In this document: piece by piece, positions 742 to 15,600 of the stretch
How the letters are laid out: the number at the start of each line of letters is the position of its first letter
How positions within the stretch are numbered: the first letter of the stretch is position 1
IMG/VR virus record: IMGVR_UViG_3300034198_018992
Span: 43,637 to 107,636 of that record
From: a virus
Length of the DNA stretch: 64,000 nucleotides
Strand: one strand, 5' to 3'
Notes under the pieces: model-generated
The model's input: the letters and a program-made list of their open reading frames with translations, nothing else
The model's database searches: none
Told to the model about the DNA's origin: nothing
Made by a program: the position numbers and the translations under genes

Positions 742-815
742 TGGAGCCTCGTGCTGGTTACGCTCCAGCGAACCCTTTTTACCAAAAAGGCGGTTTACTA
801 TTAAATTAACGAGGC
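742..815 (-). tRNA. tRNA-Thr(GGU)
   Basis: Acceptor GCCTCGT/ACGAGGC pairs fully and CCA is encoded. Anticodon loop is TTGGTAA, D-loop AATAGTA (A18 G19), T-loop AGCGTAA (G55 C56). The discriminator is U, as in the other two Thr tRNAs here. The D-stem is weak. Confidence 0.85.
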
Positions 816-824
816 GTTAAAATT

Positions 825-898
825 TGGTCGAAACAGAAGGTTACGCTCCTTCGTCTTTTGAATGTCAATCAAAAATTCTACTATTGAACTATGTCTCG
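825..898 (-). tRNA. tRNA-Val(GAC)
   Basis: Acceptor pairs with one wobble. The anticodon stem TTTGA/TCAAA encloses TTGACAT. D-stem GTTC/GAAT with loop AATAGTA, T-loop AGCGTAA, CCA encoded. Confidence 0.85.
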
Positions 899-945
899 AA
901 ATGACTGCGCGATTTGAGTTTTGTGTATAGGCTTGCACAGTCTGT

Positions 946-1025
946 TGGTTGCGGCGTTACGAATCGCACGTAATTTATCTGCTTATGAGACAGACCAGAA
1001 GAAACTTCTCCTATGCCCGACCGCG
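946..1025 (-). tRNA. tRNA-Met(CAU)-like, initiator type, degenerate 5' half
   Basis: T-arm TTACG/CGTAA with loop TGCGATT and anticodon loop CTCATAA are clear, and CCA is encoded. The 5' end CGCGG would pair with the 3' strand leaving a C1xA72 mismatch, as in bacterial initiators. The D-arm region is several nt too long, so this may be a decayed copy. Confidence 0.5.
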
Positions 1026-1116
1026 TGGAGGTTCGGATTCCGACTTTACGGCCCCAGATATTATCGCCATCGCTGGCAACCTCCCCTTAACCGAGGGAGA
1101 CGGGGTTTTACTAACA

Positions 1117-1190
1117 TGGTCGCTAATGCTGGTAACGCTCCAGCGTCCTGCGCTTATGAAACGCGAGTCCTGCTTTTGAACGAATTAGCG
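1117..1190 (-). tRNA. tRNA with CAU anticodon (elongator Met or Ile2)
   Basis: Seven perfect acceptor pairs including C1-G72, so not an initiator. Anticodon loop TTCATAA, D-stem GTTC/GGAC with loop AAAAGCA, T-loop AGCGTTA. The sequence alone does not tell Met from lysidine-type Ile. Confidence 0.85.
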
Positions 1191-1196
1191 ATAAAA

Positions 1197-1421
1197 TTAT
1201 GAACGCGTGTCCTCGAAACAATGGATGTCAGCTTCTTCGAGAGCTTCGCGCCCTTTACTAGTGATTTCCCATCCAAAAAATCTTTTTCTCAAATGTCCCG
1301 AATCAACCAAATCTCTCATAACGCGTCCTTCGATAGAGGCCACGAAAATATCCATTCGATTGATTGAGCCTCCAAACCAGTGTAGTGTGACATTGAGAGC
1401 GTCAAGATATGTTCCATTCAT
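1197..1421 (-). CDS. small winged-helix-like protein
   Basis: A 74-aa ORF tucked between two tRNA genes. The segment GRVMRDLVDSGHLRKRFFGWE followed by ITSKGREALEE matches the recognition helix and wing pattern of small winged-helix proteins (PadR/MarR style), where LTxxGxxAL is common. It is probably a DNA-binding regulator. Both gene ends sit within about 10 nt of flanking tRNAs, so transcription is probably shared with the array. The family assignment is an inference. Confidence 0.6.
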   Translation of the reverse strand: MNGTYLDALNVTLHWFGGSINRMDIFVASIEGRVMRDLVDSGHLRKRFFGWEITSKGREALEEADIHCFEDTRS

Positions 1422-1428
1422 TGTAATT

Positions 1429-1512
1429 TGGTATCGGTGACAGGACTTGCACCTGCAAAAGTATCCGTTTTAAGCGGAGAGGCTGTGCTATTCGCCATTA
1501 ACTCACACCGAC
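1429..1512 (-). tRNA. tRNA-Leu(UAA), unusual layout
   Basis: Acceptor GTCGGTG/CACCGAT, anticodon loop CTTAAAA, T-loop TGCAAGT, D-arm GGC/GCC with an AATAGCA core. The variable loop is only about 6 nt although bacterial Leu tRNAs have a long arm, and about 8 extra nt lie between acceptor and D-arm. Confidence 0.65.
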
Positions 1513-1530
1513 ATTTTGACTAAACTTCTC

Positions 1531-1917
1531 TTAGCGCGTCCTAACTTCGACATCTGGGATAATCGTGGTAGGACGGAAGATGACACGATAATGAAAAGGC
1601 GACGCTGGAACGGATTCGATTTGTTCGCAGAACCAAGTCACGTTATCAGAAACACCAAGATAGTGCTTCTTATACTGATTCGGCCCAGTCTTTACGATAA
1701 CCGAGAGGCGCTTATCTTCTGGCGTCACAGATAGAAGACCCTCGATGGTGAGTATGTAATCTCCTGTGATGCCGTTGTAGAACACGACTCGTCTGTTGAC
1801 TTCAAAATTATGCGCGGCCTGCGAAACATTATAGGCGGCTACGTCTGATTCTGGCTGGCACCCAGCGATTGATAGTGACGCGACGGCGATGATTGCAAGT
1901 TTTAGGAATGATTTCAT
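1531..1917 (-). CDS. secreted lipoprotein
   Basis: The 128-aa product begins with a charged n-region (MKSFLK), a hydrophobic core and a lipobox ending SIAGC at about residue 19, so it should be lipidated at Cys19 and exported. No conserved domain was recognised in the rest. Phage lipoproteins of this size include Rz1-type spanins and superinfection-exclusion proteins. It is too long for Rz1, and its place among early genes fits a host-envelope or exclusion role better. That role is inferred. Confidence 0.75.
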   Translation of the reverse strand: MKSFLKLAIIAVASLSIAGCQPESDVAAYNVSQAAHNFEVNRRVVFYNGITGDYILTIEGLLSVTPEDKRLSVIVKTGPNQYKKHYLGVSDNVTWFCEQIESVPASPFHYRVIFRPTTIIPDVEVRTR

Positions 1918-1929
1918 GTTTGATTTTTA

Positions 1930-2430
1930 CTAGTCTACTCGTTTTTGCGACGGAGTCAAGAGCCCAATCTCATATTTGAAGATATACTCCTCGATAGAAA
2001 GCCCCGCCTCTTTGGCTGCGGCTTTGATTTCGCGATATTCCTCAAAAGGAATTCTCTTCTTTCCTACCCGATAAAACCACTTCTGGGTGTCGCCCCACAC
2101 AAACATCGTCGTGTAAACCGGACCAGAGATGATGGTGTTGATTTTATGAAATTTAGATTTGTTACAGTAAGTGACTGTGAACGGGCTCTTTATCTTTAAG
2201 CCTGTGCAGAAACTTCCATCTGCTGTATCGTAAGCGTTCTCTTCGAGATAACAGCCCTTCAAGATTAGTGACAGAAAATTCCAAGGATAGGAATGTAAAT
2301 GGTCCCTGTCTGCCTTGTGTATTCTGTGGATATACCACGAGAGCCACTTTGACTCGAAAATCGCCCAGCGCTCGAAGTGCAGCTCGCCCTCTTTGGAGGT
2401 AATGGTTTTGACTTTCTTGAAAAATTTCAT
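1930..2430 (-). CDS. conserved phage protein, possibly cupin-like
   Basis: A 166-aa soluble protein. The segment HLHSYPWNFLSLILKGCYLEE, then a beta-rich stretch including HKINTIISGPVYTTMFVWG, resembles the two histidine-bearing strands of small cupins. I could not confirm the full metal-binding set. The C-terminal third is basic and helical. It lies between the lipoprotein gene and a tRNA. No specific function is assigned. Confidence 0.65.
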   Translation of the reverse strand: MKFFKKVKTITSKEGELHFERWAIFESKWLSWYIHRIHKADRDHLHSYPWNFLSLILKGCYLEENAYDTADGSFCTGLKIKSPFTVTYCNKSKFHKINTIISGPVYTTMFVWGDTQKWFYRVGKKRIPFEEYREIKAAAKEAGLSIEEYIFKYEIGLLTPSQKRVD

Positions 2431-2535
2431 CGAATACGGCGGCTAGTTAAGATTAGTAACGCGGACATCACTACCGAAAGAGTTAAGATATTGAGTGGCA
2501 TTTATGTTTTCTTTGTGTTTCCGACGTAAAAATTG

Positions 2536-2610
2536 TGGTGGATACATGAGGGAGTCGCACCCTCGACTACGCATTGCGAGTGCGTCGTGATTCTATTTCA
2601 CCAATGACCC
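2536..2610 (-). tRNA. tRNA-Ala(CGC) with bulged acceptor
   Basis: Anticodon loop CTCGCAA, D-loop AATAGAA, T-loop TGCGACT, CCA encoded. G3-U70, the alanine identity pair, is present. The 3' acceptor strand ATGTATCC has 8 nt against 7 on the 5' side, leaving one bulged U. The same bulge occurs in tRNA-Ala(GGC). Confidence 0.85.
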
Positions 2611-2764
2611 ATTTCTCAAGGGGCTAACTCCCCGTCCAGCAACTAACAAGCGCGGATATTATTACCTCCGTCCTGCCAATCTACTAAGCTCAGAGCAACC
2701 CGAACTCTTTAATTCGCGACCCAATGGGCCGCAGCCAAACTAGCGTAATACGCTACTGATGAGA

Positions 2765-2841
2765 TGGAGGTCAGCCAAGGAATCTCACCTTGCTATAGAA
2801 GTTTTGCAAACGACTGCGTTCAAATAGCTCGCCCGCTGACC
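2765..2841 (-). tRNA. tRNA-Cys(GCA) copy 1, weak anticodon stem
   Basis: Acceptor GGTCAGC/GCTGACC is perfect, with U73. Anticodon loop TTGCAAA but only 2-3 stem pairs. D-loop AGCTATTTGAA (A18 U19) and T-loop TGAGATT (G55 A56) show the covaried U19-A56 pair. The gene may be decaying. Confidence 0.7.
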
Positions 2842-3630
2842 AAATTATCAAAGCTGAGACTATGCTTCGATTCGAGAACCTTTACAAGACGTATGTGTTA
2901 TCTTGTTATCCAGCGACCTTTCGACCGCTATTTCTCACAGATGCTTTTGAATGGTAGCATATCCATTAACCGTCGCGCTACTCAGCGTTTTTTCGTCTCA
3001 GCTAACCCCGCTAAAGGCCAACCAATCTTACTCTGACGCCAAACGTTATTCCCTTGAGAGGTTTAACGCTCGCTGTTGCCCGAAGGCCAGCGACTTAATC
3101 TGCTTATCGCGCTAACGTGGACAGAACTTTTTCTTGTAAGTTCCAAATACTTATCCCTATTATGTTGCGTCTGTCCAGTCGCTAGATGACCTTTCGACCA
3201 CCCAATACAACACAACATGATATCTTTCGCCAGCGGCGATTTCGACGGCTTTCTCGGTCATAAACTCTCACGAGTCCACTCCCGTTTGGGCTGCTGTTCG
3301 CGTCTTGCTTGCTAGGCTCGACATAAACAACTACGCTTCGTTCTCGACTATTTAAGTTTGAACCCGTTTACCAGAGTTTCACGTCTGGAAACGCCCCTTT
3401 CGGGACGCCGGAACCTCGATAGTCTAGTCCACAATGTTTGGCATTGTAAACCGAGGAACTACGGTTGCATAAGTGACCGTAAACGGCGGCTGAAAATGTA
3501 GGGCTTTCAGCCTTTCTTCGCCTTGCGGCGCGTTATCTAAGAGGTCATGCCCCCTTTTGTTGCTTTCGAGAGAGTTTCCTGTCTCAATCGCATGGTTACA
3601 TTCTAGGCTCTTTTGCTAAAACGTCAACAC
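2842..3630 (-). ncRNA. candidate large structured non-coding RNA (about 0.78 kb)
   Basis: No plausible ORF or cloverleaf was found, but the stretch is packed with perfect helices. They include 3070-3093 (TCGCTG/CAGCGA capping GCC-CGAA-GGC), 3119-3125 with 3170-3176 (GGACAGA/TCTGTCC), 3371-3388, 3392-3407, 3431-3447, 3460-3481 and 3488-3512 (8 bp). On the minus strand three hairpins close with GAAA tetraloops, which favours that strand. Size, phage context and tRNA neighbourhood recall the GOLLD and ROOL RNA classes. Family membership is unproven and the boundaries are approximate. Confidence 0.6.
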
Positions 3631-3632
3631 TT

Positions 3633-3977
3633 TTAATCTTCTGTCCAAAGTCCAAGAGCTTTTAGAAAAGCTTCGGCGCGCTGCGCAGCCGTGGAATTTA
3701 GAGCCACGAATGCCATATATTTGTTCTTATTGAAGTAACAGCCCCCGTTGTCCAGAACTATCTCACCCAAAAGCTCGACATAAAGTTTCGCTTGCTTTAC
3801 TGACAACATCCTCTCCGCCTCGCGCATCGCGTTCAAATCCGTCAAAGGGTCGTGGACGTTAAACATCCGCTCGTCTCGAATCACTGCTAAAGTCATTAAA
3901 CGATAGCGGCAGCTATCGGAGATGTCTTTCCAGCCACAGAACTTAATGATAGCTTTTCTTTGCGCTTCGGGTTTCAT
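3633..3977 (-). CDS. phage hypothetical protein, ABA-sandwich-like
   Basis: A 114-aa protein with the pattern DPLTDLNAMREAERML in the middle, followed by KQAKLYVELLGEIV and a C-terminal ALNSTAAQRAEAFLKALG helix. That arrangement is common in small phage proteins annotated as ABA-sandwich domain proteins. Those have no established biochemical role. Its stop codon lies right beside the structured RNA region. Confidence 0.7.
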   Translation of the reverse strand: MKPEAQRKAIIKFCGWKDISDSCRYRLMTLAVIRDERMFNVHDPLTDLNAMREAERMLSVKQAKLYVELLGEIVLDNGGCYFNKNKYMAFVALNSTAAQRAEAFLKALGLWTED

Positions 3978-3979
3978 AT

Positions 3980-4056
3980 TGGAGTCCTGTCACGGTATCG
4001 CGCCGTGCAACAACAATTTTGCAGATTGTGGGGTTCAACTTGCTCCCTCACAGGAC
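3980..4056 (-). tRNA. tRNA-Cys(GCA) copy 2
   Basis: Acceptor GTCCTGT/ACAGGAC, U73, anticodon stem ACAAT/ATTGT with loop CTGCAAA, T-stem CACGG/CCGTG with loop CGCGATA. The D-loop AGCAAGTTGAA aligns with copy 1 but has A18 G19 facing G55 C56. Confidence 0.88.
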
Positions 4057-4198
4057 ATAATTCGTTATCGAATTACTATAATTCCTATCTCGTTTTCAAA
4101 ACGAGCATCCAACTCGATTATTTTCCCATATTTACATCCTCCGCCGAGGCGGCATCGAGACTGAAGTAAAAAATCGTTGGAATAAGGTATAAAGAGCA

Positions 4199-5109: not shown

Positions 5110-5184
5110 TGGAAGCCCCGCAACGACTTGCACGTTGAGTCTGCTGGGTCAGAACCAGATATGTTTCTATTACACCACAGGGCT
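5110..5184 (-). tRNA. tRNA-Gln(CUG)
   Basis: Acceptor AGCCCTG/CGGGGCT, anticodon loop TTCTGAC, D-stem GTGT/ACAT with loop AATAGAA, T-stem CAACG/CGTTG with loop TGCAAGT, CCA encoded. Confidence 0.88.
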
Positions 5185-5186
5185 AA

Positions 5187-5208: not shown

Positions 5209-5299
5209 TGGCGGTAAGCAGAGAACTCGCATCCCACACCTTTTTTAAGGGTGCCACTAAGTTTCCAGCTTAGGTCATCACTTTGATGATTTACTTACC
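5209..5299 (-). tRNA. tRNA-Ser(GGA)
   Basis: Class II tRNA. Anticodon stem CTAAG/CTTAG with loop CTGGAAA, long variable arm with GGCACC/GGTGT pairing, T-loop TGCGAGT, G73 and CCA encoded. Confidence 0.82.
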
Positions 5300-5302: not shown

Positions 5303-5391
5303 TGGCAGCAGATTGAGGTAGCGCGCCCCACACCCTTTTGGGGTGCCCTTCGCTTTCGAGGCGAGGCCGAATCTTATTCGGGTAATCTGCT
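5303..5391 (-). tRNA. tRNA-Ser(CGA)
   Basis: Class II. Acceptor AGCAGAT/ATCTGCT, anticodon loop CTCGAAA, variable-arm hairpin CACCC/GGGTG, T-loop CGCGCTA, G73. Confidence 0.85.
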
Positions 5392-5443
5392 AAGCAGCGA
5401 TACAAATACTAGAAAAAATGTGACGCGACGTGTAAAATCATGT

Positions 5444-6016
5444 ATGAAACAAAAAATCCTTGATTGTAAAACCTCCAACCCAACATGGGGGTATAAAAAC
5501 ATAGCGAAATTTTTAGGTTGCGCTTATAGTACTGTCGCTTACTATTTGAATCCTGAAGGTAAAAAACGAAGCTTCGCACGAACGAGAAAGCATCGGGCGA
5601 ATTTCAACGGAATTTTGAAACGCAAAAAGGATAATTTCCAATGTATAGCGGGGCGGCGATGCACTAAGGCCGGATTAGCGGGCGGACGAAATCGTGCAGC
5701 TTCTCTGTTCTCTGCTCAAGAACTTAAAGACAAGCTCTTGTCTCAGCCTATCTGCTATCTTACGGGACTACCGATAAATCTACTAGAGCCGAAAACCTAT
5801 GAGCTTGACCATATTCAACCTATTGCGAAAGGAGGAGATAATTCTCTTTCAAATTGCGGCTTGACGCTAAAAGCGGTAAATCGCGCAAAATCAGACTCCA
5901 CATTAGAAGAGTTCGAGGAAATCTGTAAGTTAGTTTTGATACACCGTGGATACTCAGTATCCAAAATGGCGGAAGCTGTCGGTACTGCCCCGACCTCACC
6001 TGTTACAGTGAACTAG
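5444..6016 (+). CDS. HNH endonuclease (homing type)
   Basis: A 190-aa protein from the ATG at 5444. An upstream in-frame GTG at 5420 exists, but the paralogue at 6839 also begins MKQK. The N-terminal 35 residues form a helix-turn-helix (PTWGYKNIAKFLG). The HNH core is CYLTGLPINLL, then ELDHIQPIAKGGDNSLSN, then NRAKSD. It is antisense to the surrounding tRNAs. Its last 17 codons run through tRNA-Ser(UGA), where it finds its stop. That suggests insertion beside the tRNA with the tail supplied by tRNA sequence. Confidence 0.85.
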   Translation: MKQKILDCKTSNPTWGYKNIAKFLGCAYSTVAYYLNPEGKKRSFARTRKHRANFNGILKRKKDNFQCIAGRRCTKAGLAGGRNRAASLFSAQELKDKLLSQPICYLTGLPINLLEPKTYELDHIQPIAKGGDNSLSNCGLTLKAVNRAKSDSTLEEFEEICKLVLIHRGYSVSKMAEAVGTAPTSPVTVN

Positions 6017-6058
6017 TTTTCAAGACTAGCGCGACCAACTTATATTCGCCTAGCTTCC
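5967..6058 (-). tRNA. tRNA-Ser(UGA)
   Basis: Class II. Acceptor GGAAGCT/AGCTTCC, anticodon stem CTAGT/ACTAG with loop CTTGAAA, variable arm TCAC/GTGA, T-loop GGCAGTA, G73. It overlaps the 3' end of the antisense HNH gene by 50 nt. Confidence 0.88.
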
Positions 6059-6060: not shown

Positions 6061-6135
6061 TGGTGGACACATTCGGGATTCGCACCCGAAAATCAATTCT
6101 GCCAGAATTGCATGATACTATTTCATCAATGGCCC
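6061..6135 (-). tRNA. tRNA-Ala(GGC) with bulged acceptor
   Basis: Anticodon stem CAATT/AATTG with loop CTGGCAG, D-stem ATGA/TCAT with loop AATAGTA, T-loop TGCGAAT. G3-U70 is present. The 3' acceptor strand ATGTGTCC leaves one bulged U against GGGCCAT. Confidence 0.87.
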
Positions 6136-6145: not shown

Positions 6146-6221
6146 TGGTTGCGGAAATGGGATTTGCACCCATGCATGGAGGCTTATGAAACCCCTGACT
6201 TAACTACTTGTCTATCCCGCT
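6146..6221 (-). tRNA. tRNA-Met(CAU), initiator-like
   Basis: 5' AGCGGGA against 3' TTCCGCA leaves an A1xA72 mismatch and six pairs, the hallmark of initiators. Anticodon loop TTCATAA, T-loop TGCAAAT, D-loop AGTAGTTA. Nucleotide 1 is shared with the final A of the next tRNA's CCA. Confidence 0.8.
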
Positions 6222-6294
6222 GGTGAGCCGTCACGGTAATTCTCCGTGTTCCTGAGTTTAAGAGACTCGTGACTTAATTTTAGTCGAACAGCCC
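6221..6294 (-). tRNA. tRNA-Lys(CUU) copy 1
   Basis: Anticodon loop CTCTTAA, D-stem GACT/AGTC with loop AAAATTA (U19), T-stem CACGG/CCGTG with loop AGAATTA (G55 A56). The Levitt pair is thus U19-A56. Confidence 0.85.
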
Positions 6295-6298: not shown

Positions 6299-6382
6299 TG
6301 GCACACCCTTGCCGTAACGCTCGGCTTAGTCTGATGACTCTCGTTTTGGAGACGAGTTCCAATCCTTCTTGGGAGAGGGTGT
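6299..6382 (-). tRNA. tRNA with CCA anticodon (Trp codon) but a long variable arm
   Basis: Acceptor ACACCCT/AGGGTGT, anticodon stem CTCGT/ACGAG with loop CTCCAAA, T-loop AGCGTTA, G73. The variable region is 13 nt and pairs AGTC/GACT, a class II feature not expected for Trp. Confidence 0.75.
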
Positions 6383-6529: not shown

Positions 6530-6611
6530 TGGCTCCTAGTCTTCGAGTCGCACGAAGCTCGTTATTTCACGGTTTAACAGACCGCCGGTTACACTCGTTT
6601 CCTTACTAGGA
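6530..6611 (-). tRNA. tRNA-Asn(GUU) copy 1, extended variable region
   Basis: Acceptor TCCTAGT/ACTAGGA, anticodon loop CTGTTAA with stem CGGT/ACCG, T-stem CTTCG/CGAAG with loop TGCGACT, G73. The variable region is about 10-12 nt and the D-region is long. Confidence 0.75.
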
Positions 6612-6621: not shown

Positions 6622-6697
6622 TGGTCGCTCCTGTCGTACTTGCAACGACACTTTCGCGGTTTCTGAGACCACGCTCTCTGCATTGGAGTAAGGAGCG
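6622..6697 (-). tRNA. tRNA-Leu(CAG), short variable loop
   Basis: Acceptor CGCTCCT/AGGAGCG, anticodon stem GTGGT/ACCGC with loop CTCAGAA, D-arm CTC/GAG with loop CAATGCAGA, T-loop TGCAAGT, A73. Only a 6-nt variable loop. Confidence 0.82.
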
Positions 6698-6700: not shown

Positions 6701-6792
6701 TGGTAGTTCTGCTCAGACTTGCACTGAGACCCGGCACCAATCAAGTGCGCCACGTTTATAAGACGTGCGATGCTACTTTACATTACAGAACC
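6701..6792 (-). tRNA. tRNA with UAU anticodon (Ile AUA codon) and a long variable arm
   Basis: Anticodon stem CACGT/ACGTG with loop CTTATAA, D-stem ATGT/GCAT with loop AAAGTA, T-stem CTCAG/CTGAG with loop TGCAAGT, A73. The variable arm pairs GCAC/GTGC, which is class II. Confidence 0.8.
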
Positions 6793-6838: not shown

Positions 6839-7333
6839 ATGAAACAAAAAGTCCTTGACTGTAAACTACAAAACCCAACTTGGGGTTACAGAAAAATCGC
6901 TAAACATCTATCGGTTTCTATTGCTTGTGTTCGATATTATCTTAGCCCAACTGCTAGAGATTACGCGTTAAGGAAAGCCAAAGAGTACGATTCTAAAGCC
7001 CATCCTTTAAGACGGAAGCTGCAAAGATTTTATGGTAAATTTTTCAGTATGGGCGGAAAATTGAAAGGGCAGGCGGAACCTGCAATCTCCTTCAAGGATG
7101 CGTTAGCGTTTATTGGCGAAAATCCGACCTGCTACCTAACAGGCGAAAAGATTGACTTATTAAAAGCGGATAGCTACTCACTAGACCATAAAGTACCAAG
7201 AAGTAAAGGCGGCGCTTGTGACTTGTCTAATATGGGTTTGACTACCAAAAACGCAAACGTTGCTAAAAATGATTTGGCGTTAGACGACTTCTTAAAATTG
7301 TGCCGTAGTGTTGTGTCTATTCATGGTAATTAG
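6839..7333 (+). CDS. HNH endonuclease (homing type), paralogue of the 5444 gene
   Basis: A 164-aa protein on the strand opposite the tRNAs. It has the same layout as the gene at 5444: N-terminal MKQKVLDCK plus helix-turn-helix (PTWGYRKIAKHLS), then CYLTGEKIDLL, SLDHKVPRSKGGACDLSN and NVAKND. The HNH residues are visible, so it is probably active. It likely nicks tRNA-linked or intergenic DNA to spread copies of itself. Unlike its relative it ends in its own stop (SIHGN) before any tRNA. Confidence 0.87.
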   Translation: MKQKVLDCKLQNPTWGYRKIAKHLSVSIACVRYYLSPTARDYALRKAKEYDSKAHPLRRKLQRFYGKFFSMGGKLKGQAEPAISFKDALAFIGENPTCYLTGEKIDLLKADSYSLDHKVPRSKGGACDLSNMGLTTKNANVAKNDLALDDFLKLCRSVVSIHGN

Positions 7334-7956: not shown

Positions 7957-8027
7957 TGGTGTCCCCGCACGGTATCGCGCCGCGTTTCTCAGAGTTAGAA
8001 GCTCCAGAAGTATCTATTACCGAGGAC
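7957..8027 (-). tRNA. tRNA-Arg(UCU)
   Basis: Acceptor GTCCTCG/CGGGGAC, anticodon stem GGAG/CTCT with loop CTTCTAA, T-loop CGCGATA, CCA encoded. The D-arm is short (AATAGAT core). Confidence 0.82.
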
Positions 8028-8619: not shown

Positions 8620-8694
8620 TGGTCAGGTGCATACGAGTTCCACGTATCCGGCGATTTTCACAGAATCGAATGCTGAGTGCTACATCATCACCTG
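8620..8694 (-). tRNA. tRNA-His(GUG) copy 1
   Basis: Anticodon stem CGATT/AATCG with loop CTGTGAA. The T-loop TGGAACT has G56 and the D-loop AGCACTCA has C19, a flipped Levitt pair. A73 faces U-1 instead of the usual C73/G-1. Confidence 0.83.
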
Positions 8695-8759: not shown

Positions 8760-8834
8760 TGGGGTCACGTATGGGTTTCGCTCCCATTCTGGAATTTTCA
8801 CAAAATTCAGTGCGGCTATCACACTCACGTAACC
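8760..8834 (-). tRNA. tRNA-His(GUG) copy 2
   Basis: Anticodon stem GAATT/AATTC with loop TTGTGAA. C73 and G-1 (8834) give the normal histidine identity pair. T-loop AGCGAAA, D-loop GATAGCC. Confidence 0.87.
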
Positions 8835-8971: not shown

Positions 8972-9046
8972 TGGTGTCCCACCCAAGATTTGCACTCGGA
9001 ATTATGCGGTCGAAACGCATTGTTATATCTGTTTCACTAATGGGAC
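8972..9046 (-). tRNA. tRNA-Arg(UCG)
   Basis: Acceptor GTCCCAT/GTGGGAC, anticodon stem ATGCG/CGCAT with loop TTTCGAC, T-loop TGCAAAT, D-loop core AACAGAT, CCA encoded. Confidence 0.86.
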
Positions 9047-9157: not shown

Positions 9158-9232
9158 TGGAGCCACATTAGGGAGACGCACCCTACTATCTAGTTTACGA
9201 AACTAGCACATCGCTGACTATGTTTATGCGGC
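9158..9232 (-). tRNA. tRNA-Thr(CGU)
   Basis: Acceptor GCCGCAT/ATGTGGC, anticodon stem CTAGT/ACTAG with loop TTCGTAA, D-stem ACAT/ATGT with loop AGTCAGCG, T-loop TGCGTCT, U73. Confidence 0.87.
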
Positions 9233-9379: not shown

Positions 9380-9454
9380 TGGTGCTGCCGGAAAGAGTTG
9401 CACTTTCATAAACCAGTTTAGGAGACTGGCGCATATCTATTCTGCCACGGCGGC
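9380..9454 (-). tRNA. tRNA-Arg(CCU)
   Basis: Anticodon stem CCAGT/ACTGG with loop CTCCTAA, T-stem GAAAG/CTTTC with loop TGCAACT, D-loop AATAGAT. One acceptor mismatch (3-70). Confidence 0.85.
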
Positions 9455-9508
9455 GTAAAGAACAGCCCTGAGATTACGCTTTTTTCAAGAGGCGTCAAGG
9501 CTCTAATT

Positions 9509-9582
9509 GGTCGGAAGTGCAAGTGCTGCCCTTGCGAATTTTGGGTGTAGGCCAAATATGATACTGTTTCATCAACCTCCGA
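9509..9582 (-). tRNA. tRNA-Val(UAC)
   Basis: Acceptor CGGAGGT/ACTTCCG, D-stem ATGA/TCAT with loop AACAGTA, anticodon stem TTTGG/CCAAA with loop CCTACAC (C33 in place of U33), T-loop GGCAGCA. Confidence 0.86.
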
Positions 9583-9588
9583 TTAAAT

Positions 9589-9664
9589 GGAGTTCACCCC
9601 CGAACTTGCATCGGGAACCTCTACCTTCGCAAAGTAGTGCTCTATCTATTGAGCTAGGCGAACA
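9589..9664 (-). tRNA. tRNA-Arg(GCG) copy 1
   Basis: A textbook cloverleaf and the best reference for the altered elbow: acceptor GTTCGCC/GGTGAAC, D-stem GCTC/GAGC with loop AATAGATA, anticodon loop TTGCGAA, 5-nt variable loop, T-stem CCCGA/TCGGG with loop TGCAAGT. Confidence 0.92.
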
Positions 9665-9930: not shown

Positions 9931-10023
9931 TGGCGGCTAGCTAACGTCCCGCCCGCTACACCTTGTTTAAGGGTGCCTTTCAATTAGCAATTGAAGGTGG
10001 CCACTCGACCACTTAACTAGCCA
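9931..10023 (-). tRNA. tRNA-Ser(GCU)
   Basis: Class II. Acceptor GGCTAGT/GCTAGCC, anticodon stem TTCAA/TTGAA with loop TTGCTAA, variable hairpin CACCC/GGTG, T-loop GGCGGGA, G73. Confidence 0.86.
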
Positions 10024-10027: not shown

Positions 10028-10103
10028 TGGTGTTCCTACCAGAACTCGCATCTGGAACAGGGGCTTCGCAAGCCTCTATGATTTCTGATTTCACCATAGG
10101 AAC
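10028..10103 (-). tRNA. tRNA-Arg(GCG) copy 2
   Basis: Acceptor GTTCCTA/TAGGAAC, anticodon loop TTGCGAA with one stem mismatch, D-loop AATCAGAAA, T-stem CCAGA/TCTGG with loop TGCGAGT. Confidence 0.83.
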
Positions 10104-10108: not shown

Positions 10109-10183
10109 TGGTAGCCTATCTCGGTAACGCTCCGAGGTTTACTGATTGAGAATCAGTCGTGCTTACTTTTACACTAATAGGCC
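10109..10183 (-). tRNA. tRNA-Glu(CUC)
   Basis: Acceptor GGCCTAT/ATAGGCT, anticodon stem ACTGA/TCAGT with loop TTCTCAA, T-stem CTCGG/CCGAG with loop AGCGTTA, D-loop AAAAGTAA. Confidence 0.88.
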
Positions 10184-10188: not shown

Positions 10189-10276
10189 TGGTGGGCTAAT
10201 CCGGTATTGCGCCGAAATGTGCATTTAAGCAACCAAGGTTACAGCTTGGCCGACCTCTTTAGTCGTCTATTAACCC
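10189..10276 (-). tRNA. tRNA-Tyr(GUA) copy 1
   Basis: Class II as expected for bacterial Tyr. Anticodon stem CCAAG/CTTGG with loop CTGTAAC, acceptor GGGTTAA/TTAGCCC, T-loop CGCAATA. Confidence 0.86.
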
Positions 10277-10280: not shown

Positions 10281-10354
10281 TGGTGCTCGACCTCGGACTC
10301 AAACCGAGATACGACCTTTTAGAGAGGCTTGCTTTATCATTAAGCTAGCCGAGC
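10281..10354 (-). tRNA. amber suppressor tRNA (CUA anticodon)
   Basis: Acceptor GCTCGGC/GTCGAGC and D-stem GCTT/AAGC are complete. The anticodon loop CTCTAAA (U33, A37) gives CUA, which reads UAG. Unlike nearly all others it has G18 (loop AATGATA) with U55 (T-loop TTTGAGT) and a covaried A19-U56 pair. Discriminator A, short variable loop. Which amino acid it carries cannot be read from the sequence. Confidence 0.82.
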
Positions 10355-10673: not shown

Positions 10674-10748
10674 TGGAGGTTTGTCCACGAATCCAACGTG
10701 GCATCTCCCGCTTTGCAGGCGGGCGGATTGACGGTTTCCCAACAAACC
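10674..10748 (-). tRNA. tRNA-Cys(GCA) copy 3
   Basis: Acceptor GGTTTGT/ACAAACC, anticodon stem CCCGC/GCGGG with loop CTGCAAA, U73. One of the few with U55 (T-loop TTGGATT) and a G18-type D-loop (AACCGTCAA). Confidence 0.86.
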
Positions 10749-11149: not shown

Positions 11150-11225
11150 TGGTAGCCGCTGAGAGATTCGCACTCTCGCTTTACGGATTTTGAGTTCGTC
11201 GCCTCTGCTGTTGGGCTAAGCGGCC
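11150..11225 (-). tRNA. tRNA-Leu(CAA), short variable loop
   Basis: Acceptor GGCCGCT/AGCGGCT (G1-U72), D-arm GCC/GGC with loop containing AACAGCA, anticodon loop CTCAAAA, T-stem GAGAG/CTCTC with loop TGCGAAT, A73. The variable loop is about 6 nt. Confidence 0.83.
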
Positions 11226-11360: not shown

Positions 11361-11434
11361 TGGTCGGCGCGGGGAGATTCGCACTCCCAATATCTCACTT
11401 CCAAGGCGAGAAGGTTACTTACACTCACGCACCG
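11361..11434 (-). tRNA. tRNA-Pro(UGG) copy 1
   Basis: Acceptor CGGTGCG/CGCGCCG, anticodon stem CTCGC/GTGAG with loop CTTGGAA, T-stem GGGAG/CTCCC with loop TGCGAAT, CCA encoded. Confidence 0.86.
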
Positions 11435-11642: not shown

Positions 11643-11716
11643 TGGTCGCCCCTGTCGGTAACGCTCCGACTTATGTGGGTTCAAAGTCCACGGCATTGCT
11701 TCTATGCTAAGGGGCA
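11643..11716 (-). tRNA. tRNA-Gln(UUG)
   Basis: Acceptor TGCCCCT/AGGGGCG with a weak U1-G72 pair (Gln-like), D-stem GCAT/ATGC with loop AGAAGCA, anticodon loop CTTTGAA, T-stem GTCGG/CCGAC with loop AGCGTTA. Confidence 0.87.
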
Positions 11717-11724: not shown

Positions 11725-11809
11725 TGGTCGCTCCGACAAGATTTGCACTTGCACGCCTTTCGGCACAGGTATCTAAAGCCTGCATGTATTCTGATTTCAT
11801 CACAGAGCG
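11725..11809 (-). tRNA. tRNA-Leu(UAG), long variable arm
   Basis: Acceptor CGCTCTG/CGGAGCG, anticodon stem CAGG/CCTG with loop TTTAGAT, variable hairpin GCC/GGC, T-loop TGCAAAT, A73. The only Leu tRNA here with a normal class II arm. Confidence 0.8.
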
Positions 11810-11820
11810 AATTTGTTAAA

Positions 11821-11893
11821 TGGAGGACAACCACGGTAACGCTCCGTATTTATTCGGGTAAGGGCCGAACGCATTACTTTTATGCTAGTAGTC
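11821..11893 (-). tRNA. tRNA-Lys(CUU) copy 2
   Basis: D-stem GCAT/ATGC with loop AAAAGTA, anticodon stem TTCGG/CCGAA with loop CCCTTAC (C33), T-loop AGCGTTA. One acceptor mismatch; U73 is unusual for Lys. Confidence 0.78.
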
Positions 11894-11897
11894 CGAT

Positions 11898-12314: not shown

Positions 12315-12362
12315 ACTGTATATTACACGTCTGGATTAAAAGTTTCCAGAAAAACTTTGAAG

Positions 12363-12436
12363 TGGAGAGTCGCCACGGTAATGCTCCGTGTTAGGTGGGG
12401 TAAAAATCCACGGCTTTACTTTTAAGCTAGCAACCC
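12363..12436 (-). tRNA. tRNA-Lys(UUU)
   Basis: Acceptor GGGTTGC/GCGACTC, D-stem GCTT/AAGC with loop AAAAGTA, anticodon loop TTTTTAC with stem GTGG/CCAC, T-stem CACGG/CCGTG with loop AGCATTA. Confidence 0.86.
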
Positions 12437-12445
12437 ATTTGAAAT

Positions 12446-12519
12446 TGGAGTCCCATGTCGGTGCCGCCCCGACATGTTCTGCTTGGAAGGCAGAGGCATT
12501 ACTGTTATGCTAATGAGAC
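12446..12519 (-). tRNA. tRNA-Gly(UCC) copy 1
   Basis: Acceptor GTCTCAT/ATGGGAC, D-stem GCAT/ATGC with loop AACAGTA, anticodon stem TCTGC/GCAGA with loop CTTCCAA, T-loop GGCGGCA, U73 as usual for Gly. Confidence 0.89.
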
Positions 12520-12524
12520 ATTTC

Positions 12525-12695: not shown

Positions 12696-12702
12696 TTTAA
12701 GA

Positions 12703-12778
12703 TGGCCGCTGTTGTCGGTATCGCGCCGACCTCATCCCGTCTTCAGCGGGTCGCAATCTCTTGATTTGCTAAACAGCG
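12703..12778 (-). tRNA. tRNA-Phe(GAA)
   Basis: Acceptor CGCTGTT/AACAGCG, D-stem GCAA/TTGC, anticodon stem CCCG/CGGG with loop CTGAAGA, T-stem GTCGG/CCGAC with loop CGCGATA. Confidence 0.88.
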
Positions 12779-12812
12779 ATGTTTTAGACAGTAGCGCGTT
12801 TTACAGCGAACG

Positions 12813-13340
12813 TCAATGTTTTTTATCCTTTCGGGCTTTATTAAAAACCCTCTCTACTAAATCCTGAAATTCCTGATAAGAAAGCTCATGCTTCATTACG
12901 TTTACTTGGCGATGAACCCATTGAACGTTGTCCTCCGTGTATCCCTTGCTGGAGTCTATTCTATCTAGGGAGGCCGTTCTGAACAGTCCTCTTTTACCCC
13001 TGCCGAAATCTAATGGTAGGTCGCTAAGCGCGCATTTTCTTTCCTGTTTTAGGAAAAGCTGCCACAAAAATTTCGGAGAGACATCGAAAACTATGCGCCG
13101 CCGCTTGGCGGCGAATCTCATACCAGAGAATAACGAACCATATATCTCTCCTTCTCCTTTGATGTTTTTGCTTCTCCTTTGACATCCGCAACTTTTTGTT
13201 TTCCCTAGATATCGAGAGGGCTGAAGGCACAGCTTGCCGCAGCAGCACTCGCATTTCCAAATCTTGTGGCCTAGTTTATCTGTGTGAGAAAACTCTAAAA
13301 CTTTTAGAGAATTGTAGAGATGTCCTATCTGGATTGTCAT
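12813..13340 (-). CDS. HNH endonuclease with N-terminal zinc DNA-binding domain
   Basis: A 175-aa protein. Residues 1-60 carry WKCECCCG and KSCGCQR, the zinc-binding pattern that precedes many phage HNH homing nucleases. The catalytic part reads CALSDLPLDF, then ASLDRIDSSKGYTEDNVQWV and a final VNVMK helix, the arrangement of His-Asn-His enzymes using a DRIDs motif. It is probably a mobile endonuclease inserted among the tRNAs. Confidence 0.85.
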   Translation of the reverse strand: MTIQIGHLYNSLKVLEFSHTDKLGHKIWKCECCCGKLCLQPSRYLGKTKSCGCQRRSKNIKGEGEIYGSLFSGMRFAAKRRRIVFDVSPKFLWQLFLKQERKCALSDLPLDFGRGKRGLFRTASLDRIDSSKGYTEDNVQWVHRQVNVMKHELSYQEFQDLVERVFNKARKDKKH

Positions 13341-13384
13341 ACAATAGTTTACACAAGAAACCCGGATTTAGACAATTTAATTTT

Positions 13385-13459
13385 TGGCCCGCCCAACGAG
13401 TAACGCTCTCGTTCTAATACTGTGACAGAGTATCGTGCTATCTTTCACACTCTGAGCGG
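13385..13459 (-). tRNA. tRNA-Asp(GUC) copy 1
   Basis: Acceptor CCGCTCA/TGGGCGG, anticodon stem ATACT/AGTAT with loop CTGTCAC, T-stem ACGAG/CTCGT with loop AGCGTTA, D-loop GAAAGATA, G73. Confidence 0.87.
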
Positions 13460-13471
13460 AGTATTTGAAAT

Positions 13472-13546
13472 TGGTGCTGACGATAGGACTCGCACCTACA
13501 CTAATGAAGTTCTCGACCTCATGCCTCTGCATTGGGCTACGTCAGC
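13472..13546 (-). tRNA. tRNA-Leu(GAG), short variable loop
   Basis: Acceptor CGTCAGC/GCTGACG, D-arm GCC/GGC with loop CAATGCAGA (same as Leu(CAG)), anticodon loop TCGAGAA (C33), 5-nt variable loop, T-loop TGCGAGT, A73. Confidence 0.8.
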
Positions 13547-13597
13547 GAAACTAACCATCGGTTCATGCTCGCGCAGAGGAATAGCCGACGGACTGTA

Positions 13598-13672
13598 TGG
13601 TTGCAGGAGCCGTAAATTGCAACGGCGTCTTCAGCTTATGAGACTGATATGCTACTCTTACACTATCCCGCT
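13598..13672 (-). tRNA. tRNA-Met(CAU), initiator-like copy
   Basis: 5' AGCGGGA, identical to the copy at 6146, against TCCTGCA leaves A1xA72. Anticodon stem TCAGT/GCTGA with loop CTCATAA. The T-loop is 8 nt (TGCAATTT). Nucleotide 1 again overlaps the CCA of the next tRNA. Confidence 0.78.
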
Positions 13673-13748
13673 GGTCGTAGTGGCAAGTGCTGCCCTTGCT
13701 TTGGTCCGCCTATCAAGCGGGTGTCGATGCTGTTCGAGCCTCACTACG
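13672..13748 (-). tRNA. tRNA-Ile(GAU)
   Basis: Acceptor CGTAGTG/CACTACG, anticodon loop TTGATAG, 5-nt variable loop, T-stem GCAAG/CTTGC with loop GGCAGCA, D-loop core AACAGCA. Confidence 0.84.
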
Positions 13749-13858
13749 ATTAAAAATTCTTCAATGAGCGACGGGTTATTCCACGGAGTTTGCAACCTCC
13801 GCTATGTTTCGGCTCCGATTTCGTCGCTAATACAGTATAGCCTCTGTTTTATTGAAAA

Positions 13859-13931
13859 TGGCACCCCATACGGGACTTACACCCGTTACTCAACCGTGAC
13901 AGGGTTGTGTGATATTCATTCACCAATGAGG
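13859..13931 (-). tRNA. tRNA-Asp(GUC) copy 2
   Basis: D-stem GTGA/TCAC with loop ATGAATA (A18 A19), anticodon stem CAACC/GGTTG with loop CTGTCAC, T-stem ACGGG/CCCGT with loop TGTAAGT (G55 U56). The Levitt pair is A19-U56. G73. Confidence 0.88.
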
Positions 13932-14090
13932 TATCAAAATTATCGAGGATTTCACGGACGTTCCAACTCGCGGGATTTGCACCACGTTAAGGCCCGAATT
14001 AGGGGCCTGCATTACTAGATATGCTACTGTGTCTCTCTCGTTTCGGTCGTGCCTAAACCTCGGCCAAGGTTATCAGCTACCGTTTATAAA
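13932..14090. other. decayed tRNA and spacer
   Basis: A D-arm (GCAT/ATGC, loop ATCTAGTA) and a GGCCC/GGGCC anticodon-like stem with loop CTAATTC are visible near 13990-14025. The T-stem is broken and no matching acceptor or CCA was found. The GGATTTCACGGACGTTCC repeat lies next to it. Confidence 0.4.
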
Positions 14091-14165
14091 TGGTATCCCA
14101 TCGCGGTAACGCTCCGCGTTCTGCAACTTGAAAGGCTGCGGTCTTAACTTATGGACGAATGGGAC
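14091..14165 (-). tRNA. tRNA-Glu(UUC)
   Basis: Acceptor GTCCCAT/ATGGGAT, anticodon stem GCAGC/GTTGC with loop CTTTCAA, D-arm GTC/GAC, T-stem CGCGG/CCGCG with loop AGCGTTA. Confidence 0.86.
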
Positions 14166-14171
14166 ATAAAA

Positions 14172-14258
14172 TGGTGGGCAATGTAGGAGTCGCACCTACC
14201 AGTCCATTACAGAGGCGGGTTTACAATCCGCCCTCGCACTCTACGAGTCTAACTACCC
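14172..14258 (-). tRNA. tRNA-Tyr(GUA) copy 2
   Basis: Class II. Acceptor GGGTAGT/ATTGCCC, anticodon stem GCGG/CCGC with loop TTGTAAA, T-stem GTAGG/CCTAC with loop TGCGACT, A73. Confidence 0.84.
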
Positions 14259-14261
14259 AAA

Positions 14262-14337
14262 TGGTCGGAACGGCAGGTGCTGCCCCCGCCTCGTCCTGTT
14301 CCCAAAACAGGTGCCTGAACTGCTAGGCTACGTTCCG
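14262..14337 (-). tRNA. tRNA-Pro(UGG) copy 2
   Basis: Acceptor CGGAACG/CGTTCCG, D-stem GCCT/AGGC with loop AGCAGTTC, anticodon stem CCTGT/ACAGG with loop TTTGGGA, T-loop GGCAGCA. Confidence 0.88.
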
Positions 14338-14349
14338 ATGTTCAACTAA

Positions 14350-14425
14350 TGGTGGAGCATGACGGTATCGCGCCGTCTCTTGGAAGGTGCAAGCTTCCTG
14401 TGCTAACTTCTCTCACTAATGCCCC
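14350..14425 (-). tRNA. tRNA-Ala(UGC)
   Basis: Acceptor GGGGCAT/ATGCTCC with the G3-U70 alanine pair and no bulge. Anticodon stem GGAAG/CTTCC with loop CTTGCAC, T-stem GACGG/CCGTC with loop CGCGATA. Confidence 0.88.
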
Positions 14426-14587
14426 GAAATTGAATTCTAGCGGTTGAGAAACGCATTTCTTTATCCCGTTACTATGACGGGCCACGTTCAACGCTTTGGC
14501 AGTGTCGCTACTAGAAATAGGCTCTAATTCCAAGATAACCCTCACATCACACCACTAATGGTGTAAATTAACATAATCTGTTAATAT
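14426..14587. promoter_or_regulatory. spacer upstream of the plus-strand HNH gene, with palindrome
   Basis: The perfect palindrome ACACCA-CTAA-TGGTGT lies near 14551-14566, followed by an AT-rich stretch leading to the ATG at 14588. It could be an operator, or the remnant of a tRNA end. No clear -35/-10 pair was found. Confidence 0.35.
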
Positions 14588-15154
14588 ATGAGCAAAAATT
14601 CTAATCATGTCAAAATGTGGCGCAAAAATACCAAAATCCGTATCATCGAATCTATGGGAGGATGCTGCCAAATCTGCAATTACAAAAAATGTAACGCGGC
14701 GCTCGAACTTCATCATTTAGACCCATCTATTAAAGAGTTTTCGTTTGGTAAAACTATGTCGTCACCTAAAGCTTGGAGCAAGATTTGTGCCGAACTAAAA
14801 AAGTGTATTTTGTTATGTTCCAACTGTCATCGAGAAGTGCATAACGGAGTTGCAAATGTTCCCGAAACCTTTCGGGCGTTTAATGAGTCGTTCGTCAACT
14901 ATAGACCGGAAACAGTGATAGAAATGAATTCGTGCCCTATCTGCGGCGCAGATAAACCAGTAGGTTACAAAGTTTGTTCGAGGTCTTGTGCGTGCAAACT
15001 TCGGGAGAAGTTTGATTGGTCGTCAATAGACCTGTATGATATGATGGTCGTGCAAAAACTCAGCCCGAATTCGATATCGGAATTAATAAACATTAGCCCA
15101 ACAGGAATTCGCAAAAGAGCTAAAAAACTTGGTATTATTACTTCCAAATGTTAA
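14588..15154 (+). CDS. HNH endonuclease with zinc finger and C-terminal HTH
   Basis: A 188-aa protein antisense to the tRNAs. The HNH core is CCQICNYKKCNAALELHHLD, then ILLCSNCHREVH. A second zinc site (CPICGADK and VCSRSC) follows at about residues 119-138. The last 45 residues form a helix-turn-helix (SPNSISELINISPTGIRKRA). The layout is typical of homing endonucleases, with the DNA-binding module placed at the C-terminus. Confidence 0.85.
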   Translation: MSKNSNHVKMWRKNTKIRIIESMGGCCQICNYKKCNAALELHHLDPSIKEFSFGKTMSSPKAWSKICAELKKCILLCSNCHREVHNGVANVPETFRAFNESFVNYRPETVIEMNSCPICGADKPVGYKVCSRSCACKLREKFDWSSIDLYDMMVVQKLSPNSISELINISPTGIRKRAKKLGIITSKC

Positions 15155-15155
15155 G

Positions 15156-15249
15156 TGGCTCCAAAGCTAGGATTCGGACCTAGATACCACGCAGGGGTGG
15201 GATGCACGAAGTTAACAGCTTCGCCACTTTCCAGTTAGTGTACTTTGGA
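15156..15249 (-). tRNA. tRNA-Asn(GUU) copy 2, long variable arm
   Basis: Acceptor TCCAAAG/CTTTGGA, anticodon stem CGAAG/CTTCG with loop CTGTTAA, a CCAC/GGTGG variable arm, G73. D-loop AACTGGAA has normal G18 G19 and the T-loop TCCGAAT has C55, so the 18-55 pair is G-C. Confidence 0.83.
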
Positions 15250-15258
15250 AGTAAAGAA

Positions 15259-15336
15259 TGGTGCGGTATGTCGGCTTTGCTCCGACGTTATTCCTATTTG
15301 GAAGACAGGTGCCATAACTAACTAGGCGAATACCGC
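15259..15336 (-). tRNA. tRNA-Gly(UCC) copy 2
   Basis: Acceptor GCGGTAT/ATACCGC, anticodon stem CCTGT/ATAGG with loop CTTCCAA, T-stem GTCGG/CCGAC with loop AGCAAAG, D-loop AGTTAGTT. Confidence 0.84.
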
Positions 15337-15496
15337 ATAATAACTACCACTGCAAATAACAAACATCTTTAAGCTTTTTACAAGCTATCCGACAGGGGCG
15401 CTAGCTGGCCGATTTTAATGCTAGACTCTCTATGGTCGTTTTCGCCGTTTGCGTTTAGGGCGGCTTCCCTTTACTTCACTCACTCTACTGCCTTTT

Positions 15497-15526
15497 TTGA
15501 AAAGGTCAACAGGTTTTTGAAAAACT
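15497..15526 (-). promoter_or_regulatory. possible promoter upstream region of the tRNA array
   Basis: TTGACC on the minus strand, followed about 16 nt later by TAGAGT, lies between tRNA-Gly(GCC) and the rest of the array. The match is modest. Confidence 0.3.
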
Positions 15527-15600
15527 TGGAGCGCGCAGCGGGACTTGCAACCGCTTTCCCTGAATGGCAATCAGGAGTAATACTCATATACGATGCGCGC
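15527..15600 (-). tRNA. tRNA-Gly(GCC)
   Basis: Acceptor GCGCGCA/TGCGCGC, anticodon stem CCTGA/TCAGG with loop TTGCCAT, D-arm GTA/TAC, T-loop TGCAAGT with one T-stem mismatch, U73. Confidence 0.85.

Follow-up and report, generated by a model that had tools for sequence, protein, structure and literature searches.

A viral tRNA array with a swapped A18/G55 elbow and similar arrays in Verrucomicrobiota

A tRNA array with a swapped elbow contact

A 64,000-nucleotide stretch of viral DNA, termed the window (G000:C1:43637-107636, from the 107,636-base IMG/VR record IMGVR_UViG_3300034198_018992), contains an array of 53 tRNA genes, all on the minus strand between positions 742 and 15600, in which the tRNA elbow is rebuilt. 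The contact between G18 of the D-loop and pseudouridine 55 (Psi55) of the T-loop is treated as nearly invariant in tRNAs. In place of this canonical combination of G18 with U55, 50 of the 53 genes have a G at position 55, and the three that do not (10281-10354, 10674-10748 and 15156-15249) all have G18 D-loops. The isotypes cover all 20 amino acids plus an amber (CUA) anticodon, and the G55 members alone suffice for all 20 amino acids. A first-pass annotation of the sequence had reported G55 in 51 of about 54 tRNAs, which was right to within one gene, and the exceptions it named (Sup-CUA and Cys copy 3 with U55, Asn copy 2 with C55) were confirmed. The sequence evidence for the rebuilt elbow is strong.

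The array was detected with a cloverleaf finder that scores the stems, U8, U33, the variable loop and CCA, leaving the T-loop bases and positions 18 and 19 unscored. At the first setting, 35 tRNAs were detected on the minus strand and 0 on the plus strand; a second run gave 40 versus 0, with 0 in 3 shuffles, and lowered thresholds gave 48 and 0, with 3 false matches in 5 shuffles. One of these 48 calls (2725-2819) was dropped. A covariance model trained on 32 array tRNAs detected 46 tRNAs at E<1e-4. The union of the scans and hand parsing yielded the 53 genes, six of which were parsed by hand, while the two weakest (946-1025 and 1429-1512) were corrected by eye. ARAGORN recovered 24 of the 53, and the Rfam tRNA model gave 16 matches at its gathering score over the whole window. 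The array tRNAs have a cloverleaf, a 7-nucleotide T-loop, U33 and an encoded or added CCA; the departures are one 8-nucleotide T-loop (at 13598, parsed by hand) and stem defects in a few genes. Some tRNAs with a CAT anticodon are initiator-like, having a mismatched first pair, and the Ser and Tyr tRNAs have long variable arms.

The annotation had proposed a covariance-model alignment as a check for canonical U55 and G18. Among the nine window tRNAs printed in the Rfam alignment, G occupied the U55 column in 8/9, while the position-18 column held A in 6/9 and G in 3/9 (10281-10354, 9588-9663 and 13472-13546); the G18 of the last two, which are G55 tRNAs, is a choice of register made by Rfam. 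Covariation counts were limited to tRNAs with 7-nucleotide D-loops, because position 18 can then be read without choosing a register. For the distinct array tRNAs of this type, as read in the longer record described below (L115), the bases at 18-19 and 55-56 were AG with GC in 11, AA with GT in 1, AT with GA in 1, GA with TT in 1, GT with TG in 1 and GC with GC in 2, the register of these last two being uncertain.

The same association was present in other viruses. A tRNA motif was used to pick out IMG/VR stretches, of which at least 120 were found; 80 listed loci were scanned, and identical tRNAs, tRNAs without CCA and tRNAs matching the motif were left out of the counts. U55 prevailed in this set overall (676/775 tRNAs). 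The 7-nucleotide D-loops gave 28 A-G, 181 G-U, 2 A-U, 0 G-G and 3 other combinations at positions 18 and 55 (Fisher p 7e-33, uncorrected for relatedness). Both elbow classes co-occurred in 13 of 55 viral stretches, none of which contained A-U or G-G. When all sets were pooled (n = 437; 7-nucleotide loop, 4-base-pair D-stem, motif matches included), 240 tRNAs were A-G, 186 G-U, 1 A-U, 0 G-G and 10 of other classes. Positions 19 and 56 formed a Watson-Crick pair in most of these tRNAs, with G-C in 418/437; among the remaining 19, 10 were Watson-Crick, 5 were G-U and 4 were mismatched. The elbow swap described by the annotation therefore stands for 18/55 and was an incomplete account, since 19-56 varies too.

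Folding error was rejected as an explanation, as the loop-blind scans detected tRNAs on one strand only, Rfam placed G in the U55 column in 8/9 and positions 18 and 55 covary. The recurrence of this covariation in further phage contigs as well as bacterial arrays bore out the argument made against folding error in the annotation. Descent from a single duplicated tRNA was also rejected: among 839 distinct G55 tRNAs all 20 isotypes are present, and the nearest canonical tRNA shares the amino acid for 333/839 G55 tRNAs, as compared with 589/877 canonical ones and 5.3% expected by chance.

A purine was present at position 57 in 839/839 distinct G55 tRNAs and also in 873/877 U55 tRNAs. Positions 54 and 58 of the 839 G55 tRNAs were U-A in 461, A-U in 222, G-G in 77, C-A in 52 and other in 27, so that U54 is absent in nearly half. 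In other RNAs, a UGNRA lone-pair triloop together with an outside A is described, in the parts of the report consulted, as a composite GNRA tetraloop (PMC2258182). The G55 tRNAs have the corresponding sequence, with G55, a purine at 57 and A18 as the outside A, and G55-C56-R57 plus A18 would fit a composite GNRA turn. The likeness to the triloop of the TPP riboswitch type lies in the G at the second position, the purine at the fourth and the outside A completing the turn; the difference is that those parts of the report describe the triloop for RNAs other than tRNAs (PMC2258182).

Distribution among phages and bacteria

Relatives of the phage were collected with a DNA polymerase gene search (the best 80 of 81 loci), and arrays were sought in the records that hold 47 of these 80 loci. 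A longer record of 186,105 bases (L005) has an identical polymerase and carries the same array, inverted, with 100% identity over 15,000 bases (also L115); a lone Met tRNA of that record, far away from its array, is canonical. Three further large arrays (G004, G039 and G047) were detected among the 47 records. In these three, G55 was present in 70/94 distinct tRNAs with CCA, the 94 including three canonical tRNAs outside the G047 array. The G039 array is followed, on its own strand, by an HNH gene that shares 33-40% identity with those of Verrucomicrobia, and the G047 array encloses a relative (31%) of an unknown protein that follows the arrays of Geminisphaera. The swapped elbow is not a general trait of the phage group, as 13 regions of polymerase relatives with few tRNAs were canonical (28/28 distinct tRNAs with CCA, 33/33 in a looser scan). 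Unannotated candidates were seen in two named phages: an Ile-GAT G55 tRNA between annotated tRNAs of the cultured Pseudomonas phage KIL2 (L372:9291-9364) and a candidate G55 tRNA in Rhizobium phage RHph_I1_18 (L368:15788-15861). A tmRNA candidate with a long tag was reported by ARAGORN in the phage record, outside the window (L003:11649-12062).

The annotation had presented a whole phage tRNA set with a rebuilt elbow. The coverage of all 20 amino acids agrees with this, and the elbow is shared with bacterial arrays, so that a virus-only feature was rejected. A stricter motif applied to species genomes gave 73 stretches, of which 49 were by title from Verrucomicrobiota lineages, some genomes being represented twice. 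In the cellular motif loci, with motif matches excluded, 494/565 distinct tRNAs had G55. In Geminisphaera colitermitum TAV2 the Rfam model gave 68 tRNA matches, of which 43 fall beyond the two arrays of this genome; the main array had G55 in 31/31. The scattered tRNAs fetched from Geminisphaera and Chthoniobacter flavus had U55 in 27/27 distinct genes. As judged by Rfam matches, the arrays lie apart from the housekeeping tRNAs in Geminisphaera, and likewise in Chthoniobacter.

Twenty Verrucomicrobiota regions were fetched out of 30 genomes, and G55 was present in 390/410 tRNAs of these loci. In 17 of the 20, a same-strand gene of one HNH family was located at the downstream end or past it, within 400 bases in 11 of the 17 and at no more than 6.5 kb in the rest. 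Other neighbours were RtcB (8 loci), TROVE (7), a sigma factor (6) and an SPFH protein, slipin (5), the domain names having been assigned from one to three members of each cluster. RtcB and sigma genes adjoin the arrays of Geminisphaera, whose type of RtcB had no relative found in IMG/VR. Five of the Verrucomicrobial arrays were counted for coverage, with 20 amino acids in two, 19 in one and 18 in two. As the strict motif, which spans one G55 type only, was found in 3/387 genomes sampled from the phylum, counting the starting genome, these arrays look accessory.

Isolated tRNA-Val(GAC) genes with A18/G55 were observed in Alphaproteobacterial metagenome-assembled genomes, near-identical between samples (L263, L264, L273, L276, L281, L283, L290, L297, L301, L303, L304, L312, L319 and L322), and a similar tRNA was present in L280 (Thalassotalea). 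The Alphaproteobacterial gene may be a normal chromosomal one with a swapped elbow. In L305 and L320 no G55 tRNA was obtained.

Genes of the array and other features of the window

All array genes listed here are on the minus strand, as are the ligase genes below. tRNA-Thr(GGT) (742-815) and tRNA-Val(GAC) (825-898) have A18 G19 and the T-loop AGCGTAA. They are followed by an initiator-like tRNA-Met(CAT) with C1/A72 (946-1025, TGCGATT; a weak match, anticodon by hand), a tRNA with a CAT anticodon (1117-1190, A18 G19, AGCGTTA) and tRNA-Leu(TAA) (1429-1512, TGCAAGT; a weak match, 5' end by hand). The acceptor stem is bulged in tRNA-Ala(CGC) (2536-2610, TGCGACT) and tRNA-Ala(GGC) (6061-6135, TGCGAAT); by eye, these two genes have a common acceptor stem with an extra 3'-side base, and G3-U70 is kept. 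Copy 1 of tRNA-Cys(GCA) (2765-2841) has the T-loop TGAGATT, with G55 A56 and by eye a probable U19, while copy 2 (3980-4056) has CGCGATA and copy 3 (10674-10748) is an exception with G18 U19 and U55 G56. The other exceptions are the tRNA with a CTA anticodon (10281-10354), which has G18 A19 with U55 U56, and copy 2 of tRNA-Asn(GTT) (15156-15249), which has G18 G19 with C55 C56; copy 1 of the latter (6530-6611) has TGCGACT. Changes at 19-56 together with G55 were present in a tRNA-Lys(CTT) (6221-6294), where A18 U19 occurs with G55 A56 (AGAATTA; 19-56 is U-A), in a tRNA-Asp(GTC) (13859-13932), where A18 A19 occurs with G55 U56 (TGTAAGT; 19-56 is A-U), and in a tRNA-His(GTG) (8620-8694), with probable A18 C19 and G55 G56 (TGGAACT).

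The combination A18 G19 was also read in tRNA-Gln(CTG) (5110-5184, TGCAAGT), tRNA-His(GTG) (8760-8833, AGCGAAA), tRNA-Val(TAC) (9508-9581, GGCAGCA), tRNA-Gln(TTG) (11643-11716, AGCGTTA), tRNA-Lys(CTT) (11821-11894, AGCGTTA), tRNA-Lys(TTT) (12363-12436, AGCATTA) and tRNA-Gly(TCC) (12446-12519, GGCGGCA). The T-loop TGCAAGT recurs in tRNA-Leu(CAG) (6622-6697), tRNA-Ile(TAT) (6701-6792), tRNA-Arg(GCG) (9588-9663) and tRNA-Gly(GCC) (15527-15600). TGCGAGT was found in tRNA-Ser(GGA) (5209-5299), a further tRNA-Arg(GCG) (10028-10103) and tRNA-Leu(GAG) (13472-13546), and TGCAAAT in tRNA-Arg(TCG) (8972-9046), tRNA-Leu(TAG) (11725-11809) and an initiator-like tRNA-Met(CAT) with an A1/A72 mismatch (6146-6221). 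A tRNA with a CAT anticodon and the same mismatch (13598-13672) has the 8-nucleotide T-loop TGCAATTT, parsed by hand. AGCGTTA is present in tRNA-Trp(CCA) (6299-6382), tRNA-Glu(CTC) (10109-10183), tRNA-Asp(GTC) (13385-13459) and tRNA-Glu(TTC) (14091-14165), and CGCGATA in tRNA-Phe(GAA) (12703-12778), tRNA-Ala(TGC) (14350-14425) and tRNA-Arg(TCT) (7957-8027), the D-stem of which is weak. The other Ser genes are tRNA-Ser(CGA) (5303-5391, CGCGCTA), tRNA-Ser(TGA) (5967-6058, GGCAGTA) and tRNA-Ser(GCT) (9931-10022, GGCGGGA; 5' end by hand), and the Tyr(GTA) genes lie at 10189-10276 (CGCAATA) and 14172-14258 (TGCGACT). tRNA-Pro(TGG) occurs at 11361-11434 with TGCGAAT, as in tRNA-Leu(CAA) (11150-11225), and at 14262-14337 with GGCAGCA, as in tRNA-Ile(GAT) (13672-13748). 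The set is completed by tRNA-Thr(CGT) (9158-9232, TGCGTCT), tRNA-Arg(CCT) (9380-9454, TGCAACT) and a tRNA-Gly(TCC) at 15259-15336 (AGCAAAG).

A GOLLD RNA lies within the array at 2851-3220 (minus strand; Rfam 150.6 bits, cut-off 150). Mycobacterial papers on tRNAs and non-coding RNAs mention GOLLD in the parts consulted, and the tRNA array units described in parts of two such reports (PMC5966550, PMC12803027) are alike in being dense arrays on chromosomes, phages and plasmids. Also inside the array, 1531-1917 encodes a protein of the family Mycobacterium phage VG64 (PF25682, E 8e-48), and open reading frames at 5420-6016, 6839-7333 and 14588-15154 lie on the strand opposite to the tRNAs; that at 5420-6016 has an HNH domain, and it and 6839-7333 weakly match the array HNH.

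An RNA ligase gene (PF09414, E 4.9e-10) adjoins the array at 68-703, and two more ligases are encoded at 28437-29468 (PF09414, E 5.3e-25) and 33743-34918 (T4 Rnl1-type, PF09511, E 7.5e-13). Of the three other array phages, G004 and G039 have RtcB. In nine relatives with few tRNAs, RtcB was found in none and PF09414 in one; these misses are not firm, as the ligase at 68-703 is present in the longer record yet went unlisted by the ligase search of that record. At 23399-25784, a nicotinamide phosphoribosyltransferase adjoins a nucleotidyltransferase-Nudix protein, an NAD-restoring pair as in jumbo phages.

Proposed role and rival explanations

We propose that the array holds spare tRNAs in which the elbow is re-encoded, kept for translation while tRNAs are under attack, a reading for which we consider the chances even. 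The G55-C56-R57 T-loop would take A18 from the D-loop, replacing the U55 turn held by G18 with a composite GNRA-type turn, and 19-56 would mostly remain a matched pair. The L shape, anticodon and acceptor end would be preserved, leaving the tRNA usable in translation. TruB, which makes Psi55, cannot act without U55; with U55 and often U54 gone, the established specificities of these enzymes suggest that TruB, TrmA (which makes T54) and any tRNases reading or cleaving the T-loop would not act. For phages, some of which also encode RNA ligases, the set would allow translation to continue when host tRNAs are attacked. In some Verrucomicrobiota, a similar array ahead of an HNH nuclease gene, joined in some cases by RtcB, TROVE, sigma or slipin genes, may be a cellular reserve against stress or RNA damage. 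We infer the three-dimensional fold, expression, charging and protection of the G55 tRNAs on this basis. The annotation had suggested that the tRNAs may escape host modification or elbow-recognising host nucleases; its interpretation was partly supported, the covariation being confirmed and the escape being a conjecture for this phage.

Several known systems point to such a pool, hidden from elbow-reading enzymes. In the trn operon of Anabaena PCC 7120, a large tRNA set lies apart from the housekeeping genes, and parts of the report describe RtcB, slipin and HNH endonuclease genes rising with the operon on loss of TrcR and on translational stress (PMC10272220); the corresponding linkage was found in the Verrucomicrobiota loci for RtcB (8/20), HNH (17/20) and slipin (5/20). 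Jumbo phages are described, in the parts of the source consulted, as countering attacks on translation with tRNAs and RNA ligases together (PMC7824862), and ligases are present in the window and in relatives. Phage tRNAs with altered anticodon loops have been proposed to evade nucleases (PMC10264068); they are alike in that the alteration would defeat host tRNA attack and differ in that it lies in the anticodon loop, a word search of the available text finding no mention of the T-loop, D-loop, T-arm or elbow. That attack on the T-loop exists is indicated by a CDI toxin, which according to the parts consulted cleaves a tRNA between T and Psi within the T-loop (PMC9086364). Cas12a3 was considered as an elbow reader and rejected, since T-loop, D-loop, T arm and elbow are absent from the paper by word search. 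In the open-licence literature searched, neither A18/G55 tRNA sets nor tRNA arrays of Verrucomicrobiota were found to have been described before.

A number of observations weigh against this reading. Canonical arrays occur beside a similar HNH gene. Twelve HNH-neighbour regions were fetched, of which five had no tRNA and one had only a doubtful tRNA; plasmid arrays were all U55 in Mycolicibacterium (28/28), Pseudarthrobacter (31/31) and Variovorax (10/10) and mostly canonical in Nostoc PCC 7524 (U55 in 18/20), and phage arrays were mostly canonical in Tunturi_5 (U55 in 21/23) and canonical in Mx1 (4/4). The M. alvei plasmid array (canonical in 28/28) thereby differs from that of the window, and the Nostoc array differs also in having its HNH gene before the array. 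Hence a swapped elbow is not needed for an array, and arrays with an HNH gene form a wider system of which the swapped elbow is a variant. The annotation, which had treated the elbow as that of a phage set, was right for this array, whereas other phage and plasmid arrays keep the canonical elbow. Across 52 viral stretches (at least 5 tRNAs, motif matches out) the highest G55 share was 0.95 and in 23 of them it was 0, and many phage arrays have one or few G55 tRNAs among canonical ones. The 20 Verrucomicrobial loci are mutually related and were found with the A18/G55 motif. In G047 neither RtcB nor PF09414 was found, a miss that is not firm because the same search also missed a known ligase. 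Finally, GG occurs somewhere in the D-loop of 8/95 viral and 49/494 cellular G55 tRNAs, partly from G19 followed by G20, so that the A18/G55 rule holds cleanly only for loops of fixed register. The Verrucomicrobial arrays examined and those of a few phages have the swapped elbow almost throughout; in other phages the swap is partial.

The main rival is that the elbow serves folding independent of modification. The composite GNRA motif is not known to include T54 or Psi55, and a GNRA-type elbow would fold well without them, so that tRNAs made in a burst could skip TruB and TrmA and evasion would not be the point. This account, which we regard as possible though rather unlikely, predicts the same anatomy as the reserve pool; a modification-free fold would be useful to phage arrays and to suddenly induced arrays alike, and the composite turn is known from riboswitch and other loops in the parts of the source consulted (PMC2258182). 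It is harder to reconcile with the abundance of canonical arrays and phage tRNAs (U55 in 676/775 of the viral set), burst-made tRNAs usually managing with U55. A smaller likelihood is assigned to neutral drift, in which A18/G55 would be an equivalent elbow fixed by chance in weakly selected reserve tRNAs and spread by array duplication and transfer. Mixed arrays with one or few G55 tRNAs, the additional 19-56 changes and the patchy distribution (the strict motif in 3/387 phylum genomes) are as drift would predict, whereas the near-complete replacement across isotypes within single arrays and the near absence of single-step intermediates at 18/55 are not.

Two further explanations appear very improbable. 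The elbow might mark self from non-self, the phage disabling host tRNAs through the normal elbow while its own are spared, and a 20-amino-acid set that includes initiator-like tRNAs could stand in for the tRNAs of the host. Against this, a search of 29 distinct window proteins, out of 99 open reading frames of at least 90 amino acids, revealed no recognisable nuclease directed at the T-loop, and the same elbow in cellular arrays misfits a purely viral weapon. It is equally hard to credit that the tRNAs are decoys that absorb tRNA-cleaving enzymes, or that they act in another pathway in the manner of cell-wall tRNAs. Elbow changes are known in non-proteinogenic tRNAs: in the staphylococcal tRNA-Gly of this kind the elbow bases of the D-loop and T-loop are replaced, as they are here. 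That is a single isotype, as against 20 amino acids in the array, and encoded CCA, initiator-like tRNAs and long Ser and Tyr variable arms also argue against decoys.

Beyond the reserve set itself, we tentatively suggest, with more doubt than confidence, a second elbow code, in which entire mobile tRNA sets of phages and bacteria would have moved 18-55 from G-U to A-G and freed 19-56 for other matched pairs, giving a pool competent in translation yet unseen by elbow-reading modification enzymes and by immune or toxin enzymes that cut tRNAs, with the array, HNH, sigma, TROVE and RtcB genes forming one exchangeable damage-response module.

The swapped elbow is a second matched solution present in hundreds of natural tRNA genes, across all isotypes. 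As ARAGORN recovered 24/53 of the array, the tRNA numbers given for phages and bacteria can be underestimates. The finding makes testable both the purpose of the normal elbow contact and its modifications and the question of whether tRNA-targeting defences read the elbow, and the presence of G55 sets in the named isolates Geminisphaera colitermitum TAV2 and Chthoniobacter flavus Ellin428 makes such experiments possible.

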